DNA of 64,000 bases. It comes from Massilia sp. W12. Lineage in GTDB: Bacteria; Pseudomonadota; Gammaproteobacteria; Burkholderiales; Burkholderiaceae_D. Below, one piece after another: positions 26,585-32,363 of the stretch. The notes beneath the pieces were generated by a model, which searched no databases, was not told the origin of the DNA, and was given only the letters and a program-made list of their open reading frames with translations. The first letter of the stretch is position 1; each line of letters starts with the position of its first letter. The position numbers and the translations under genes were made by a program. The DNA lies in the NCBI RefSeq assembly GCF_037300705.1, contig NZ_CP147776.1:868001-932000 (forward strand). Reading direction: 5' to 3'.

Positions 26585-27976
26585 TTATTCCGGGGTCGCG
26601 CCGGCGCGTTTGCGGCTGGCCCGTTTTTTGCCCCCATCCTGTCCCAGCGGCGGATGCGGCTTGCTGCTGGCAAGCTCGAAGCGGGCCGAACTTTGCGCTG
26701 TGTGCAAAATCAGGCCGGCTCCCGGCCCCAGGCTGGCGGCGTCGCGCACCAGCGCGCCGGCCTCATCCTGCGCAATCGCATAGCCGCGCGCTAAGGTGCG
26801 CGCCGGATTGAGCATATCCAACTGCGCTTTGAGCATCGCCAATTGCTGTGCGGCGTGTTGTTGCCGCAGGTTTTGCGCACGCACCATGCGTTGCTGCAAT
26901 TGTTGCAAATATTGTTGCCCGGCACGGCTCGACGGCAGGCAGTATGTCAGACGGGTTTGCTGTTGCTGCAAACGGTGGCGCGCGGCTTGCGCCCGGCGGC
27001 TCCAGGCGGCCTGCATGCGCTGTTGCAAAGACTGCAATTCCAGACGCAGGCGCGCCAGCCGCTGTTGCGGCCCTTCCAGACGGCGCGTCAGCAGATCAAG
27101 GCGTTGCGCCTGTTCGCGCCAGTGGCGATGTTGCAGGGTTTGCAGGCGGCGCGCCGCGCCTTGCAGGACTTGCAACCACTCAGTGCGGCTGCGCGCCGCC
27201 AATTCCGCTGCAGCGGTGGGCGTGGGCGCGCGCAAGTCGGCGACAAAATCGGCAATCGTGAAATCAGTTTCGTGGCCAATTCCGGCAATCATCGGCAGGC
27301 GGCGGGCGGCAATCGCGCGCGCCACCACTTCCTCATTGAAACTCCATAAATCTTCAATACTGCCGCCGCCGCGCACCAGCAGCAGCAGGTCACACTCGGC
27401 GCGCGCATTGGCGGTAGCGATCATCTGCGCGATTTTCTCGCCCGCCCCGGCCCCTTGCACCGGGATCGGGTAAATGATCAGGCGCACATGCGGCGCGCGC
27501 CGCGCGAATGCGCTCAACACGTCTTGCAGCGCGGCTGCCTGCAGGCTGGTCAAAATGCCGATGGTGCGCGCAAACAGCGGCAGCGCCAGCTTACGCTCCG
27601 GGGCAAATAAACCTTCGTGCTCCAATTGCGCTTTCAAACGCAAAAACTGCTCATACAAATCGCCCACGCCGGCGCGCCGGATCGCTTCCACATTTAATTG
27701 ATAGTCGCCGCGCGGCGCATACAGCGAGACCTGGGCGCGCACTTCCACCTTATCGCCTTCGCGCGGCGTAAACGAGGCATATTGGGCGCGCCCCTTGAAC
27801 ATCACCGCGCGCACCTGCGCTTGCTCATCCTTGAGCGTGAAATACCAGTGGCCGGAGGCGGCCCGCACCATATTTGAGACTTCGCCGGCCACCCAGCACA
27901 GTGGAATATGCATTTCCAACAGCCGCGCCACGCTTTGATTTAACAGGCTGACGCTGAAGATTTTTTTATTGTCCAT
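26585..27976 (-). CDS. xseA: Exodeoxyribonuclease VII large subunit
   Basis: From ATG at 27976 (MDNKKIFSVSLLNQSVARLL) the product has 463 residues; an ATG 42 bases upstream is possible but less likely. The N-terminal OB fold (HWYFTLKDEQAQVRAVMFKG) is followed by the catalytic domain with GRGGGS-like LVRGGGSIEDLWSFNEE and GIGHETDFTIADFVADLRAPTPTAAAE, then a long coiled coil (about 260-400). XseA with XseB degrades single-stranded DNA to oligonucleotides. The C-terminal 35 residues are basic. The gene begins next to a cluster of DnaA-box-like sites (28011 onward). xseB is not in the window. Confidence 0.96.
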   Translation of the reverse strand: MDNKKIFSVSLLNQSVARLLEMHIPLCWVAGEVSNMVRAASGHWYFTLKDEQAQVRAVMFKGRAQYASFTPREGDKVEVRAQVSLYAPRGDYQLNVEAIRRAGVGDLYEQFLRLKAQLEHEGLFAPERKLALPLFARTIGILTSLQAAALQDVLSAFARRAPHVRLIIYPIPVQGAGAGEKIAQMIATANARAECDLLLLVRGGGSIEDLWSFNEEVVARAIAARRLPMIAGIGHETDFTIADFVADLRAPTPTAAAELAARSRTEWLQVLQGAARRLQTLQHRHWREQAQRLDLLTRRLEGPQQRLARLRLELQSLQQRMQAAWSRRAQAARHRLQQQQTRLTYCLPSSRAGQQYLQQLQQRMVRAQNLRQQHAAQQLAMLKAQLDMLNPARTLARGYAIAQDEAGALVRDAASLGPGAGLILHTAQSSARFELASSKPHPPLGQDGGKKRASRKRAGATPE

Positions 27977-28010: not shown

Positions 28011-28019
28011 TTATCCACA
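28011..28019 (+). promoter_or_regulatory. Perfect DnaA-box-like nonamer TTATCCACA
   Basis: Exact match to the high-affinity box TTATCCACA, 35 bases upstream of the xseA start codon. Confidence 0.65.
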
Positions 28020-28096
28020 GCCGGCGCAAGGCGCGCCCGCAGGCTGTGGATTTTGCCATATAATTGTCATATTTCACTGTATGAAATCACAGTATT

Positions 28097-28149
28097 TATC
28101 AAGTCATTGATTTTAAAATGATTTTGAAAAAGCAAGCGATTTATCCACA
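28097..28149 (+). promoter_or_regulatory. IHF-consensus site and perfect DnaA-box-like nonamer in an AT-rich stretch
   Basis: TATCAAGTCATTG at 28097-28109 matches WATCAANNNNTTR exactly. TTATCCACA follows at 28141-28149. The interval 28055-28140 is strongly AT-rich and could unwind easily. The spacing here (44) differs slightly from the 42 of the repeated modules. Confidence 0.5.
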
Positions 28150-28178
28150 GTTGGAAAAAAGAAAGAAAAAGCGTGTCA

Positions 28179-28229
28179 GATCAAGCGCTTTGACTGCCTG
28201 CACCCAGCTTATTCACATTTTTATCCACA
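28179..28229 (+). repeat. IHF/DnaA-box module 0
   Basis: GATCAAGCGCTTT at 28179 is a two-mismatch IHF site. TTATTCACA lies at +30 (28209-28217) and TTATCCACA at +42 (28221-28229), both full matches to TTWTNCACA. The same +30/+42 geometry occurs in all other modules; the inverted third nonamer at +56 is not evident here. Confidence 0.6.
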
Positions 28230-28401
28230 CATAGCCCTGTCCCCTTGTGCAGCTTGTTGATAAAACCGCCGCCGCAGCCTGAAACATGTTCCACGCAATC
28301 GTTTGCGCGCGCACATGGCATGATTTTGCAGGATTTTGCTGAAAAAATAAGCAGGGATCAGAAATTGCTTAAAATTTGTGCAGAGCAAAAAAATTATTAT
28401 T

Positions 28402-28466
28402 TTTCAATGGCTTATATAGTGCTGTGGAAACTTGCGCACATGCTTTTCCACAAAAATTGTGAAAAG
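28402..28466 (+). repeat. IHF/DnaA-box module 1
   Basis: TTTCAATGGCTTA at 28402 (one mismatch to the IHF consensus), TTGCGCACA at +30, TTTTCCACA at +42 (28444-28452) and inverted TGTGAAAAG at +56. It lies just beyond the end of the gene at 28513 and resembles modules in the 30-31.6 kb array over about 100 bases. Confidence 0.75.
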
Positions 28467-28512
28467 ATGTGGAAAGCTGCATGGCGCGCCGGTCTGGCGC
28501 GCGGCTGAGCGT

Positions 28513-28986
28513 TCAGGCGCGGCGCTTTTTCCACTTGAACAAGAGGAATGCAGCGCCGGCAAGCAGGCTGGGGCCGGCGATATACAAGAGATAAAACCTG
28601 AGCGCCGCCAAATCGTTTTCAAAGTCCCAGCCGTGCTCCAGCACGCGTAAAGACTGGCCCTGCAGCAAAGTGTGGCTCATCTGCGGGTTGTATTTAATGG
28701 GAAAATGCGTGCCAACCGGGATGTGCTTGAGATACTCCGGCGCCGACATGGCAGGCGCTTCGAGATCGATGTAGATTTCCTTGCTGCCGTTGACTTCGCC
28801 ATACAGAAAAGGGGCCCGATGTTCGAGCACCCCGGCGCCGGTGACGGCGAAGCGCGCATCTGTATACTCATGCCGGGCGCTGTAGCGCAGATAGGCGCCA
28901 ATTGCGGAAATCAGAAACAGGCAATTCGCGCTGAATATGATCAGCGCGCCACACGCCAGCATGATTTTCTTGCGCTTTGCAGACAT
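28513..28986 (-). CDS. Hypothetical two-helix membrane protein, DUF3592-like
   Basis: 157 residues, with ATG preceded by GAGGAG. One membrane helix near residues 8-32 and another near 130-150 flank a soluble segment with YTDARFAVTGAGVLEHRAPF and HFPIKYNPQ. This topology and the VxxxYNP-like motif resemble DUF3592 proteins, but I am not certain. It sits inside the module-bearing locus between modules 1 and 2, with two other small unknown genes. Confidence 0.72.
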   Translation of the reverse strand: MSAKRKKIMLACGALIIFSANCLFLISAIGAYLRYSARHEYTDARFAVTGAGVLEHRAPFLYGEVNGSKEIYIDLEAPAMSAPEYLKHIPVGTHFPIKYNPQMSHTLLQGQSLRVLEHGWDFENDLAALRFYLLYIAGPSLLAGAAFLLFKWKKRRA

Positions 28987-29040
28987 ATGCCAGCCTCCTC
29001 ACAGTGTGCGCCGATGCGCTTTGCGTTTGCGCAAAACAGA

Positions 29041-29427
29041 TCAGTGCAAGCGTTGCCAATCCCGGGTTTTGCCGGACAGACTGGATTTCAGGCGCAAGAT
29101 TTTTTGATCCGCCGCCAAAATTTCATCGCTATCGACAAAGCCGGGTGTAATCGATGGATGGCTGGAACGTTCATAGCGCCATATTAATTTATTGCCATCA
29201 ACCCGCCATGTGCCGGCGGCATCCAGCACTGGTGCGCCATTCGCCCTGGTGCTGCTGGTGAAAGTCTGATCTTCTTTCAAATGCACAACGGAAGCCATGC
29301 TGACGCCTTGCTGCGCGACATTGATATGCCACATGCCGTGTAAGGCGGCGGCTTGGATGTTGTGTTGAGCCGATGCGGGCGCACACAGGCTCATGGCAAA
29401 GACCAGCAGTGTTGACAGAATTTTCAT
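29041..29427 (-). CDS. Small exported hypothetical protein
   Basis: 128 residues with a signal peptide ending at about ASA-QH (residue 21). The mature part contains LHGMWHINVAQQG, FTSSTRANG and GTWRVDGNKLIWRYERSSHP, a beta-rich pattern like lipocalin-type domains that test for a threshold of W-x-V-x-GN strands. No family is firmly recognised. There is no strong ribosome binding site. It lies about 54 bases upstream of the two-helix protein gene on the same strand and may share its transcript. Confidence 0.65.
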   Translation of the reverse strand: MKILSTLLVFAMSLCAPASAQHNIQAAALHGMWHINVAQQGVSMASVVHLKEDQTFTSSTRANGAPVLDAAGTWRVDGNKLIWRYERSSHPSITPGFVDSDEILAADQKILRLKSSLSGKTRDWQRLH

Positions 29428-29604
29428 GATTGATATTGGAGCAGTATTGAATGGGACGGGAAGGCGAAGTTGTGCTTGTGTTTCAGCCTGCCTTATTATA
29501 GATGCATGCAGTTTTTCCAGCTTGGCGCTTTGAATCAGGCTAAGCGCTTCCAGGCGGATACCGCTCTTTCACCCCTGCCGGTTTGCTGATGCCATAGAGA
29601 CGCC

Positions 29605-29943
29605 ATGTTCCTCTCCTTTTGCTTTATCCCGCTCAACACCACACTTGGCGTGCAAGAAATTGCTGCGCTGCGCAAGATATCGCCCTTGTCGATCGTTGAG
29701 CTGCGCCTGCATGCTGCGCAGGGCCGCAGTGTGCTGGAGATGCCGGCATTGTGGGGCGACTGGCCGCACAATGTGCCGCAGCTCAAGCTGATCTTGGATG
29801 CTATCGAAGATGGCCAACTGCCCTTGCGCGTGGTGTTGGCCGAGGTCTATGAAGATGAAGCCTTATCTGATTCTATTGATTTGACTGTGGATGAGGCGCG
29901 GGCGCAGATGGAAGACTATCTGCGGCAAGATCCGCATGCTTGA
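29605..29943 (+). CDS. Hypothetical protein, 112 residues
   Basis: Starts MFLSFCFIPLNTTLGVQEIA. It contains LSIVELRLHAAQGRSVLEMP and LKLILDAIEDGQLPLRVVLA, helical with an acidic C-terminus. There is no signal peptide and no family is recognised. The start is not well supported by a ribosome binding site. It is divergent from the exported-protein gene and precedes the module array. Confidence 0.55.
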   Translation: MFLSFCFIPLNTTLGVQEIAALRKISPLSIVELRLHAAQGRSVLEMPALWGDWPHNVPQLKLILDAIEDGQLPLRVVLAEVYEDEALSDSIDLTVDEARAQMEDYLRQDPHA

Positions 29944-30077
29944 ACTGCCCGCTGTGCTGTGCGGCGCTTGATTTGACTTCCGGCAGTGAGGTGCGGGCGC
30001 TGACAGTTTGCCGAACTGCGCAGCGGTATGTGCCGGTGCGCTGCCTAAAAAACAGGCTGAATAAAAATTTCTTTTAT

Positions 30078-30142
30078 TATCAGATGCTTAGCTTGAGGTG
30101 GCGAAACTTGCGCACATGCTTTTCCACAAAAACTGTGCAAAG
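30078..30142 (+). repeat. IHF/DnaA-box module 2
   Basis: TATCAGATGCTTA (one mismatch to the IHF consensus), TTGCGCACA at +30, TTTTCCACA at +42 (30120-30128), inverted TGTGCAAAG at +56. Confidence 0.75.
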
Positions 30143-30291
30143 CCGGCAGCTTTTCCCCAGGCTGACCGGCTTGCCTCAGCGCTTTGCAACTTGTGCACAT
30201 TATTTTGTTTTCTTTGCAATTATGATTTTTCTGTGGATAGATAATAGTTTTCCACTGCCTAAAAATTGAGCATTGAAATTAAATTCAATAA

Positions 30292-30356
30292 AATCAAATA
30301 CTTAATCAAAGCTTTTCATGCTTTTCCACATGCTTGCCCACATTTTGTGTGCAAAA
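30292..30356 (+). repeat. IHF/DnaA-box module 3 (variant type)
   Basis: AATCAAATACTTA matches the IHF consensus exactly. Here the strong box TTTTCCACA is at +30 (30322-30330), TTGCCCACA is at +42, and the inverted TGTGCAAAA at +56 (30348-30356) is itself a full match to the box consensus on the minus strand. Confidence 0.75.
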
Positions 30357-30687
30357 TGCCTGAGTTATCCACTTCCGCCCCTGTTTGTCTTGTCACGGCG
30401 CTTTGCTTGCCGTGTGCGTATCCCTTCATGGCCGGCTTGGCAAATCTGTCTGAAGTCGTGGCGGCGGTCTGCCCTGGGCCTGCCGCAGATCAGCTCAAAG
30501 CGGGCGTTTTTTGTGGAGAAATGCATTTTTCTGCTATGAAGCAAGGGACAGAAAAGCGCGCGCGAGGAGGGCGTAAGACAGCCAAAGCGCCGCTGTTTCA
30601 GCAGGCCGTGGTTGCAAATGTATGCGCCACTGCGGTGAGGGAGGTGTGCGCTGATTAAAAATTGTGCAATTGCAAAAAATCGTTTTA

Positions 30688-30752
30688 AATCAATGGCCTA
30701 ACATCCTATGTGGAAACTTGCGCACACGCTTTTCCACAAAAAATGTGAAGAG
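30688..30752 (+). repeat. IHF/DnaA-box module 4
   Basis: AATCAATGGCCTA (one mismatch), TTGCGCACA at +30, TTTTCCACA at +42 (30730-30738), inverted TGTGAAGAG at +56. The flanks resemble module 1 closely (TGTGGAAACTTGCGCACA). Confidence 0.75.
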
Positions 30753-30895
30753 CGCGCAATTTGTGCACAGCGTCGCAGATGTTCTGTACGCATGGCGCCT
30801 TTTTGCAGGAAGCGCTTGGCAGAAAGCTGTTTTCTGTGGATATCTATCCAGAATAAAACTGCCTAAAATTTAGGCATTAAAAATAAATTCAATCA

Positions 30896-30960
30896 AATCA
30901 ATTACTTATAGAGTGCTGACTGCGCTTGTCCACATGCTTGCCCACATTTTGTGTGCAAAA
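30896..30960 (+). repeat. IHF/DnaA-box module 5 (variant type)
   Basis: AATCAATTACTTA matches the IHF consensus exactly. TTGTCCACA at +30, TTGCCCACA at +42, and the full-consensus inverted TGTGCAAAA at +56 (30952-30960), the same plan as module 3. Confidence 0.75.
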
Positions 30961-31117
30961 TCACTGACTTATCCCCGTAAGCGCATAATTTGCCGCTTTA
31001 TGCTGAATTTTGCACTGTTTTGGTGCGGAATTGCAGGCGCATAAGCCTGCTTTCAGGCTGGATGGCGTCTGCGCAGCGTTCTGCTTAAAATTTGTGCAGT
31101 GCAAAAAAATCCTGCAA

Positions 31118-31182
31118 AATCAAGCGACTGCAGCGCAGTGCCGGCGTTTCCCCACATGCTTTTCCACAAAATGTGTGCACAG
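31118..31182 (+). repeat. IHF/DnaA-box module 6
   Basis: AATCAAGCGACTG (one mismatch), TTCCCCACA near +30, TTTTCCACA at +42 (31160-31168), inverted TGTGCACAG at +56. Confidence 0.7.
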
Positions 31183-31323
31183 TCTGGGCCGCAGCTTGGG
31201 CGATGGGGATAAGCTGGCGGTGGCCGGGTTTTCTTGTAAATTGACAATGTTTTTTAAACAAAGCACGCAGGGTAGCGATGAGATGCCTGCCCAAAAAATG
31301 AGCATTGATAGTTTATTCAATAA

Positions 31324-31388
31324 AATCAAATGCTTATAGATGTCTGTCGGTGCTTGCGCACATCTTTTTCCACAAAAAATGTGCGCAA
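31324..31388 (+). repeat. IHF/DnaA-box module 7, with perfect inverted arms
   Basis: AATCAAATGCTTA matches the IHF consensus exactly. TTGCGCACAT from +30 and ATGTGCGCAA ending at +64 are perfect 10-base inverted repeats around TTTTCCACA at +42 (31366-31374). A further full box, TGTGGAAAA on the minus strand, lies at 31416-31424. Confidence 0.78.
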
Positions 31389-31519
31389 AGGCAAATGCCG
31401 GCGCATCCCGTTTTCTGTGGAAAACGCCTTGACTGCAGCCGCCTGGCGGCGCCGGAGCAGGGCGGACGGGGCTGAAGCGGCATTGCCTGTTTTTTGGGCA
31501 TTGGAAAAATAGTGTATTA

Positions 31520-31584
31520 AATCAATAGCTTAGGAATGGGTGTAAAGGCTTGCGCACATGCTTGTCCACAAAAAATGTGGGCAA
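31520..31584 (+). repeat. IHF/DnaA-box module 8
   Basis: AATCAATAGCTTA matches the IHF consensus exactly. TTGCGCACA at +30, TTGTCCACA at +42 (31562-31570), inverted TGTGGGCAA at +56. It is the last copy before exbB. Confidence 0.75.
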
Positions 31585-31757
31585 AGCCAGACTTGTGCAC
31601 ATGCGGTGTGGGCGGCAAGTGATTGATTTGCAAGATTGCGCGCATTGCCGCCGCGCTGCTGTATCATATAGGCCGCCCGTTCGCCGTCATCGCGGCAGTG
31701 CAAAAGGAGGGGCGGAGCAGGCCCGCTTTGCCGCGCATCATTCAACAGGAGTGTGTT

Positions 31758-32363
31758 TTGTTTTCCATTATTTCCCAGGCCGGCTGGCCGATCTATCCGC
31801 TTTTGATCGCATCCATCATTTGCGTCGCCCTGATCATTGAACGTTTGCTGTATCTGCGCCGCAACCGCGTCCTGCCCCCGAATCTGCTCAAGGAAGTGAT
31901 CACGGTGTATCACAATGGCAAGATCAACCCTGAAGTGGTTGACTCGCTGGAAAAAACTTCGCCGCTGGGCCGTGTGCTGGCCGCCGGTTTGCGCAATGTG
32001 AATGCGCCGCGCGATGTGATGAAAGAATCGATTGAAGAAGCCGGCAGCGCCGCCGCGCATGAGCTGGAGCGTTTCCTGACCTCAATCGGCACGATTGCCT
32101 CGCTGGCCCCGCTGATGGGTTTGTTTGGCACCGTGGTCGGCATGATCGAGATTTTCGGCGCGCACAATGGCCAGGGCACGAACCCCGCTGAATTGGCGCA
32201 TGGTATTTCGGTGGCGCTGTATAACACCGGCTTTGGTTTGCTGGTGGCCATGCCGGCGCTGGTGTTTTACCGCCATTTCCGCGCCCTCATCAACAGCTTT
32301 GTGGTGGAGATGGAGCAGCAGGCGGTGAAATTCGTGGACACCGTGCACGGTTCGCGCAAATAA
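31758..32363 (+). CDS. exbB: ExbB/TolQ/MotA-family proton channel subunit
   Basis: 201 residues from a TTG start at 31758, chosen because AGGAG lies 6 bases upstream and the homology begins there (FSIISQAGWPIYPLLIAS). Three membrane segments occur at about 12-34, 108-134 and 148-172; the last two contain GTIASLAPLMGLFGTVVGMI and GISVALYNTGFGLLVAMPA, which line the channel. With ExbD it uses the proton gradient to energise outer membrane processes. It is the first gene of a run with exbD and lpxK. No tonB is nearby, so the energised partner is not known. Confidence 0.92.
   Translation: MFSIISQAGWPIYPLLIASIICVALIIERLLYLRRNRVLPPNLLKEVITVYHNGKINPEVVDSLEKTSPLGRVLAAGLRNVNAPRDVMKESIEEAGSAAAHELERFLTSIGTIASLAPLMGLFGTVVGMIEIFGAHNGQGTNPAELAHGISVALYNTGFGLLVAMPALVFYRHFRALINSFVVEMEQQAVKFVDTVHGSRK

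Follow-up and report, generated by a model that had tools for sequence, protein, structure and literature searches.

What does an intergenic array of DnaA-box-like and IHF-like sites do in Massilia sp. W12, far from any dnaA gene? The stretch of DNA analysed here, called the window, comprises 64,000 bases (positions 868001-932000) of the genome, which is one contig of 6,136,891 bases; feature coordinates are window positions unless the genome is named. Between xseA and exbB, a first-pass annotation had read nine modules of fixed geometry, in which an IHF-like site is followed by tandem nonamers and, in eight cases, by an inverted one. Our analysis indicates that this array is very likely a DnaA/IHF control locus, and comparison with E. 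coli and with related genomes suggests that it is probably a multi-unit array of DnaA-reactivating (DARS-like) sites.

Recounting the sites recovered all nine modules where they had been annotated, eight of them complete and one (module 1) partial (Table 1). TTNNNCACA nonamers stand at +30 and +42 from the IHF-like site in 9/9 modules, and an inverted TGTG follows at +56 in 8/9, being absent in module 1. Compared with WATCAANNNNTTR, the IHF-like site is exact in four modules (30292, 30896, 31324 and 31520), has one mismatch in another four and two mismatches in module 1. TTTTCCACA occurs at +42 in five modules and at +30 in one, and the first module carries TTATTCACA and TTATCCACA; all of these readings agree with the annotation. 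Eight of the nine modules match exactly a layout in which box III and box II are 3 bp apart and an inverted box I follows after another 5 bp. Counted from box III, as are all offsets below, modules 2-9 have the IHF-like site at -30, box II at +12 and the inverted box I at +26. While the listed sites stood, the conserved unit was found to reach further upstream, to an overlooked dyad (TGC-N11-GCA) at -66 that is present within one mismatch in 8/8 complete modules, six of which also have an exact Fis consensus at -65. Module 1 has the two strongest boxes, yet lacks both box I and the dyad. The core pattern TTNNNCACA-3-TTNNNCACA-5-TGTG has eight matches in the window, all with 0 mismatches, whereas 0.03 would be expected by chance even with up to two mismatches allowed, and none of 100 shuffles reached eight. 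Pairwise identity among modules 2-9 ranges from 53 to 80% over 108 bp. Since modules 4 and 6 (30256-30960) are 80% identical over this length and the other pairs 53-70%, the sequences hint that a two-module piece may have been duplicated.

In order to relate these units to known DnaA control sites, we compared them with two stretches of E. coli K-12, namely the bioD-uvrB gap (TAATACACA-3-TTATCCACA-5-inverted TTATCCACT) and the rppH-ygdT stretch upstream of mutH (TTCTTCACA-3-CTATCCACA-5-inverted TTATTCACC). The two were told apart by their neighbouring genes, which we take to be those of DARS1 and DARS2, respectively. Their assignment also drew on the map places (0.81 and 2.97 Mb; excerpts of PMC5742627), the equal spacing and the presence of two IHF sites 3 bp apart (excerpts of PMC4245941). 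The DARS core is described as three boxes, spaced alike in DARS1 and DARS2, with box I opposite to boxes II and III (PMC5742627, in part), and the head-to-head boxes I and II as characteristic of DARS and functionally essential (PMC10380432, in part). Three boxes with an opposed box I and gaps of 3 bp and 5 bp are what eight of the nine modules display. In its best placement, the core pattern had 2 mismatches on both the DARS1 and the DARS2 stretch and 4 on the datA stretch; a poorer second placement in the mutH stretch (5 mismatches) was not used.

DARS1 shares with the array the two tandem boxes 3 bp apart and the inverted one at 5 bp, and resembles the xseA arrays of relatives in place (about 0.68 versus 0.55-0.66 of the replichore). 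It differs in being a single unit with other neighbours, whereas the array has nine units with IHF-like sites; in the 160 bases on the box III side of DARS1 we found no IHF match (one mismatch allowed) and no exact Fis match. DARS2 has the core geometry of the modules and, going outward on the box III side, likewise IHF followed by Fis, with offsets of -87 and -71 for IHF and -125 for the Fis consensus relative to the core at 0. The distance between the Fis and IHF starts is 38 bp in DARS2 and 35 bp in the modules. Unlike the modules, DARS2 has its IHF sites at -87/-71 rather than -30, one core, other neighbours and boxes within one mismatch of the consensus. Because the array is flanked by xseA and exbB and not by bioD-uvrB or mutH, we call it DARS-like and not an orthologue of DARS1 or DARS2. 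The annotation had stated that no such array was known. This holds for the nine-fold array only: the core itself matches E. coli DARS, a resemblance that the annotation had not noted, and nine further genomes (eight and G018) were confirmed to have 4-7 units in the xseA-exbB gap.

To follow the locus in relatives, the XseA protein was used as bait, and the 80 loci obtained (by their titles mostly Oxalobacteraceae) were therefore not chosen for their boxes. Among the spacings of TTNNNCACA pairs in these loci, three stood out: tandem at 12 bp (78 pairs), convergent at 14 bp (68) and at 26 bp (69), with at most 4 pairs at any other, and three Markov-shuffled sets of the 80 loci yielded no pairs at 12 or 14 bp. 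Where 1 kb or more of sequence preceded the XseA match (76 loci), tandem pairs numbered none in 32, one in 27, two in 8, three in 7, five in 1 and seven in 1. The only genome of the same genus has five units; absence from close relatives, which the annotation had named as a refuting case, was thus not found. In broader searches, the core was present in 109/116 genomes of the family, 72/160 sampled genomes of the order and 62/229 sampled genomes of the class, while a control pattern had no match in the family and a single one (G155) over the 497 different family, order and class genomes. With 13 cores, Massilia sp. W12 has the highest count among the genomes listed, followed by G069 with 10.

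Gene contexts were drawn from the 30 loci fetched per search rather than from every match. In the family, 20 of 30 loci lay beside priA or hemE, 6 beside xseA, exbB or lpxK and 4 elsewhere; the corresponding numbers were 10, 14 and 4 for 28 loci of the order and 3, 0 and 25 for 28 loci of the class. The priA-hemE loci seen contain 1-4 units, with TTATCCACA as the usual box II. Some family members have a third locus (L240, L242, L246 and L247; G069, G018, G044 and G003), in which two cores, both with IHF at -96/-97, are separated by 2.5-3.6 kb. A frame for a UvrD/PcrA/Rep-like helicase, scoring under curated cut-offs, lies there in both loci that were checked (L240 and L242); this frame had no match in the Massilia sp. 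W12 genome.

The position of the IHF site distinguishes these groups of loci. With IHF and Fis consensus sequences taken from PMC4245941 (in part) and one mismatch allowed for IHF, the 63 complete cores of the XseA-anchored loci had an IHF match at -30/-29 in 46 cases and the dyad at -66/-65 in 47, so that the composite DnaA-box/IHF unit proposed by the annotation is kept in relatives in spacing as well as in IHF offset. Counting also sites at -96 to -99 in the other orientation raised the IHF number to 48/63. The priA-hemE cores, by comparison, share the core with the array but have no -30 IHF site in the loci examined. Their IHF site, in the orientation of E. coli IBS2, lies at -96 to -99 in 27/28 cores, about ten bases from its place in DARS2. 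In the order, IHF at -96 to -99 was found in 11/13 xseA-type and 10/10 priA-type cores; this list covers 13 of the 14 xseA-type loci (L181, of the same family, entered later recounts) and 10 priA-type loci (L180 being of the same family). Loci in other gene contexts, four from the order and 25 from the class, were used only for the IHF profile and its recount. In class loci outside the order, 13/26 cores had IHF at -100 to -96, compared to about 0.3 expected (mean 0.06 per offset). The association of an IHF site near -97 with the core throughout the class suggests that DARS came under IHF control before E. coli DARS2 arose. The -97 IHF site persists in three of eight family arrays, in the unit closest to xseA, and we infer that this family rebuilt and amplified a single ancient unit whose IHF site lay at -97.

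Within the 6.14 Mb genome, a scan for the core returned 13 exact matches, of which the xseA-exbB gap contains eight, the priA-hemE interval four and the vicinity of parB one; allowing one mismatch added none, and a reversed control pattern had no match in the whole genome. As 12 of the 13 exact matches sit in two intergenic gaps, a widely scattered repeat, the other refuting case raised by the annotation, could be ruled out. A box cluster downstream of parB (genome 5,403,378-5,405,850; L101) is arranged differently from the xseA-exbB array: it comprises five tandem 12-bp pairs, one of them with an inverted third box, which is the single core at 5.4036 Mb. Nearby, an AT-rich gap (genome 5,417,372-5,418,316; L159) carries seven strict DnaA boxes near mnmG and parB, together with a sign change of the sampled GC skew. 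This gap is a candidate oriC, 0.72 Mb from dnaA, which lies at position 1 of the genome. GC skew was sampled and is weak and noisy in this genome, with the clearest switch among the samples at ~5.41 Mb, beside mnmG, parB and the AT-rich box cluster; oriC is likely, though not settled, to lie at about 5.41-5.42 Mb. Measured from this switch, the array lies at ~0.53 of the replichore, and from dnaA at ~0.29. In five relatives (G028, G053, G095, G069 and G018), the xseA array lies at 0.55, 0.62, 0.63, 0.66 and 0.63 of the replichore, respectively, and a priA-hemE core 18-150 kb from dnaA, when dnaA is taken as origin and the contig as the whole chromosome (G095 has two contigs and G018 three); the same measure puts E. 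coli DARS1 at about 0.68 from dnaA.

The proteins that such a site would need have counterparts in the genome. No dnaA lies in the window, as had been annotated, the sole PF00308 (DnaA family) match of the genome being at position 518. Eight of ten DnaA positions compared with E. coli are kept (178, 211, 245, 269, 281, 285, 290 and 334), including Arg285 as well as Asp269 and Leu290, the residues named for DARS (PMC5742627, in part). Hda was matched above its cut-off, PF00216 (HU/IHF family) found two genes that were not told apart, and a Fis homologue is encoded by an 83-residue frame (E 2.5e-14; 37% identical over E. coli residues 20-97).

DnaA recharging is the best single mechanism for the array because the head-to-head box I is kept at a fixed gap in 8/9 units and because the tandem pairs of relatives mostly carry a head-to-head partner (78 pairs at 12 bp, 68 at 14 bp). 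We infer binding, nucleotide exchange and timing along the following lines. ADP-DnaA would occupy boxes I-III of a unit, and the molecules on box II and the inverted box I would contact each other head to head via their AAA+ domains, with box III helping. IHF at -30 would introduce a bend and, possibly assisted by Fis at the dyad, place the flank against the complex. After the loss of ADP, apo-DnaA would dissociate and bind ATP. A row of many weak units would give the site a greater capacity, and timing would follow from its location, which is about midway or further between origin and terminus, provided that the skew-based origin is correct.

Several observations weigh against this interpretation. 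The modules have IHF at -30 and not at the DARS2 distance (-87/-71), which is no trivial change, given that DARS2 with its IHF site shifted by 5 or 10 bp retained activity only in part (excerpts of PMC4245941). Even at -30/-29, an IHF match was present in only 28/41 units of eight related arrays, with 2/7 and 1/4 in two of them; the 13 units lacking it fall in five arrays (L231, L232, L233, L235 and L237). According to excerpts of PMC4245941, Fis and the DARS2 core are confined to E. coli-related gamma-proteobacteria, despite which a Fis homologue is present here. The Fis consensus at -65 is exact in only 6/63 cores of relatives, so that the dyad alone is general (47/63); the dyad as a purely Fis site was rejected on these numbers, and it may possibly bind another protein. 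Moreover, DnaA positions 191 and 227 (2/10) differ from E. coli. Box III has two mismatches to TTWTNCACA in 6/8 complete modules, compared with at most one in the E. coli cores, and the affinity of the array boxes for DnaA may consequently be low. None of the complete modules has all three boxes within one mismatch, each having 1-2 boxes with two, although such a limit does not figure in the definitions of DARS cited above. Finally, 32/76 XseA loci, several Herbaspirillum included, are without even two tandem boxes, and the xseA-side locus is therefore dispensable in some lineages.

What else could such an array be? The main rival, which we regard as unlikely, is a titration sink that would keep DnaA from reaching the origin, whichever nucleotide it carries. 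It accounts for the number of boxes, as the nine modules amount to 26 nonamers within 3.4 kb with extra boxes nearby, and for unit numbers that vary from 0 to 7 among relatives as a sink could, and chromosomal titration has been reported in E. coli (PMC12371093, in part). A sink, however, has no need of an inverted third box at exactly 5 bp or of constant distances to an IHF site and a dyad, and strict consensus boxes would suit it better than the many off-consensus ones found. Titration could also act alongside DnaA recharging. Similarly built from DnaA boxes and one IHF site (PMC5742627, in part), datA lies outside oriC, and a datA-like site, on which IHF-dependent ATP-DnaA oligomers would hydrolyse ATP, would have the sign opposite to DARS. 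The array is intergenic, in keeping with such a site, but IHF binds between the essential boxes of datA and lies outside the box group in 8/8 complete units here. Together with the head-to-head I/II pair, described as a DARS feature in parts of PMC5742627 and PMC10380432, and the worse fit of the core to the datA stretch (4 mismatches versus 2 on DARS1/DARS2), this leaves a datA-like role decidedly improbable.

Its place between divergent genes might instead make the array a DnaA-controlled promoter region of xseA and exbB. We give this little credence: the core also occurs at priA-hemE and flanks a UvrD/PcrA-like helicase gene in some relatives, genes of unrelated functions, and nine units over 3.4 kb would mostly be too distant from the promoter of either gene. 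A replication origin or its remnant, to which the dense DnaA boxes and IHF sites would be suited, has hardly any chance of being correct. The sampled GC skew was positive at 700 kb, 868-916 kb and 1000 kb and slightly negative over the final 16 kb of the window, without a switch at the array, and an origin at this place was rejected on these grounds.

The array gap is flanked by divergent genes, xseA pointing left and exbB right, in agreement with the annotation, and open reading frames (ORFs) beyond exbB resemble exbD and lpxK (named by eye, without hidden Markov models). A stretch with three small ORFs splits the array, separating modules 1-2 from modules 3-9. A gap of 1.6-2.1 kb between unit groups is also seen in the related arrays L008, L234 and L245. 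A fourth box-like nonamer or octamer lies at +43 from the box III start in modules 4, 5, 6 and 9 (30365, 30761, 30969 and 31593). The spacers had been called GC-rich; for the stretch as a whole, modules and spacers together, this did not hold, because its GC content is 50.3% compared with 57.8% in the window. A structured RNA was rejected, as Rfam gave two chance-level matches (E 4.4 and 4.8), far below gathering.

Table 1 Sites and genes of the xseA-exbB array and the priA-hemE cluster of Massilia sp. W12 (window positions, except where the genome is indicated).
Feature	Position	Strand	Details
xseA, exonuclease VII large subunit	26585..27976	-	left flank; ORF start possible at 28018
Two further consensus DnaA boxes TTATCCACA	28011-28019, 28141-28149 (entry 28011..28149)	+	xseA side of module 1
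Module 1 (partial)	28179..28229	+	IHF-like 28179-28191 (2 mismatches); box III 28209-28217 TTATTCACA; box II 28221-28229 TTATCCACA
Module 2	28366..28466	+	dyad/Fis-like 28366-28382; IHF-like 28402-28414; box III 28432; box II 28444; inverted box I 28458-28466
Three small ORFs (stretch 28513..29943)	28513-28986, 29041-29427, 29605-29943	-, -, +	no Pfam match
Module 3	30042..30142	+	dyad/Fis-like 30042-30058 (1 mismatch); IHF-like 30078-30090; box III 30108; box II 30120; inverted box I 30134-30142
Module 4	30256..30356	+	dyad/Fis-like 30256-30272; IHF consensus 30292-30304; box III 30322; box II 30334; inverted box I 30348-30356; box-like TTATCCAC 30365
Module 5	30652..30752	+	dyad/Fis-like 30652-30668; IHF-like 30688-30700; box III 30718; box II 30730; inverted box I 30744-30752; extra box TTGTGCACA 30761
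Module 6	30860..30960	+	dyad/Fis-like 30860-30876; IHF consensus 30896-30908; box III 30926; box II 30938; inverted box I 30952-30960
Module 7	31082..31182	+	dyad/Fis-like 31082-31098; IHF-like 31118-31130; box III 31148; box II 31160; inverted box I 31174-31182
Module 8	31288..31388	+	dyad/Fis-like 31288-31304; IHF consensus 31324-31336; box III 31354; box II 31366; inverted box I 31380-31388
Module 9	31484..31584	+	dyad/Fis-like 31484-31500; IHF consensus 31520-31532; box III 31550; box II 31562; inverted box I 31576-31584; extra box TTGTGCACA 31593
exbB (MotA/TolQ/ExbB family)	31758..32363	+	right flank
priA-hemE cluster, four DARS-like cores (L100)	genome 5,746,341-5,747,358		each with IHF-like site 97-98 bases before box III; hemE named by eye

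DARS has been studied in E. coli as two single-core sites (PMC5742627 and PMC10380432 being the sources seen here, each in part). DARS-like sequences outside E. coli are not new, because both sources mention them: PMC10380432 describes DARS1- and DARS2-like sequences as conserved across many proteobacteria, and PMC5742627 mentions beta- or gamma-proteobacteria. Our literature searches turned up neither work on DARS in Burkholderiales nor a paper about a DARS array, and no description of an amplified DARS array, of a short-range (-30) IHF placement or of the two Burkholderiales loci. The statement on DARS-like sequences outside E. coli reportedly goes back to Fujimitsu 2009.

Taking the array as DARS-like, we tentatively propose a wider scenario, which we consider possible but would not yet favour. 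In Oxalobacteraceae and their kin, the xseA-side site would have been rebuilt from an ancestral form, one core with IHF at -97, into units with IHF at -30 and multiplied up to nine, the number of units would be an evolvable dial for replication timing, and this site together with the origin-near priA-hemE site would form the general DnaA recharging system of Burkholderiales. Whether reactivation or titration of DnaA serves as the initiation timer is still debated in E. coli (PMC12371093, in part). A site of up to nine units with a searchable 30-base signature amounts to a set of natural copy-number variants, and such variants could be used to examine which of the two, the capacity for DnaA reactivation or the titration of DnaA, governs initiation timing.

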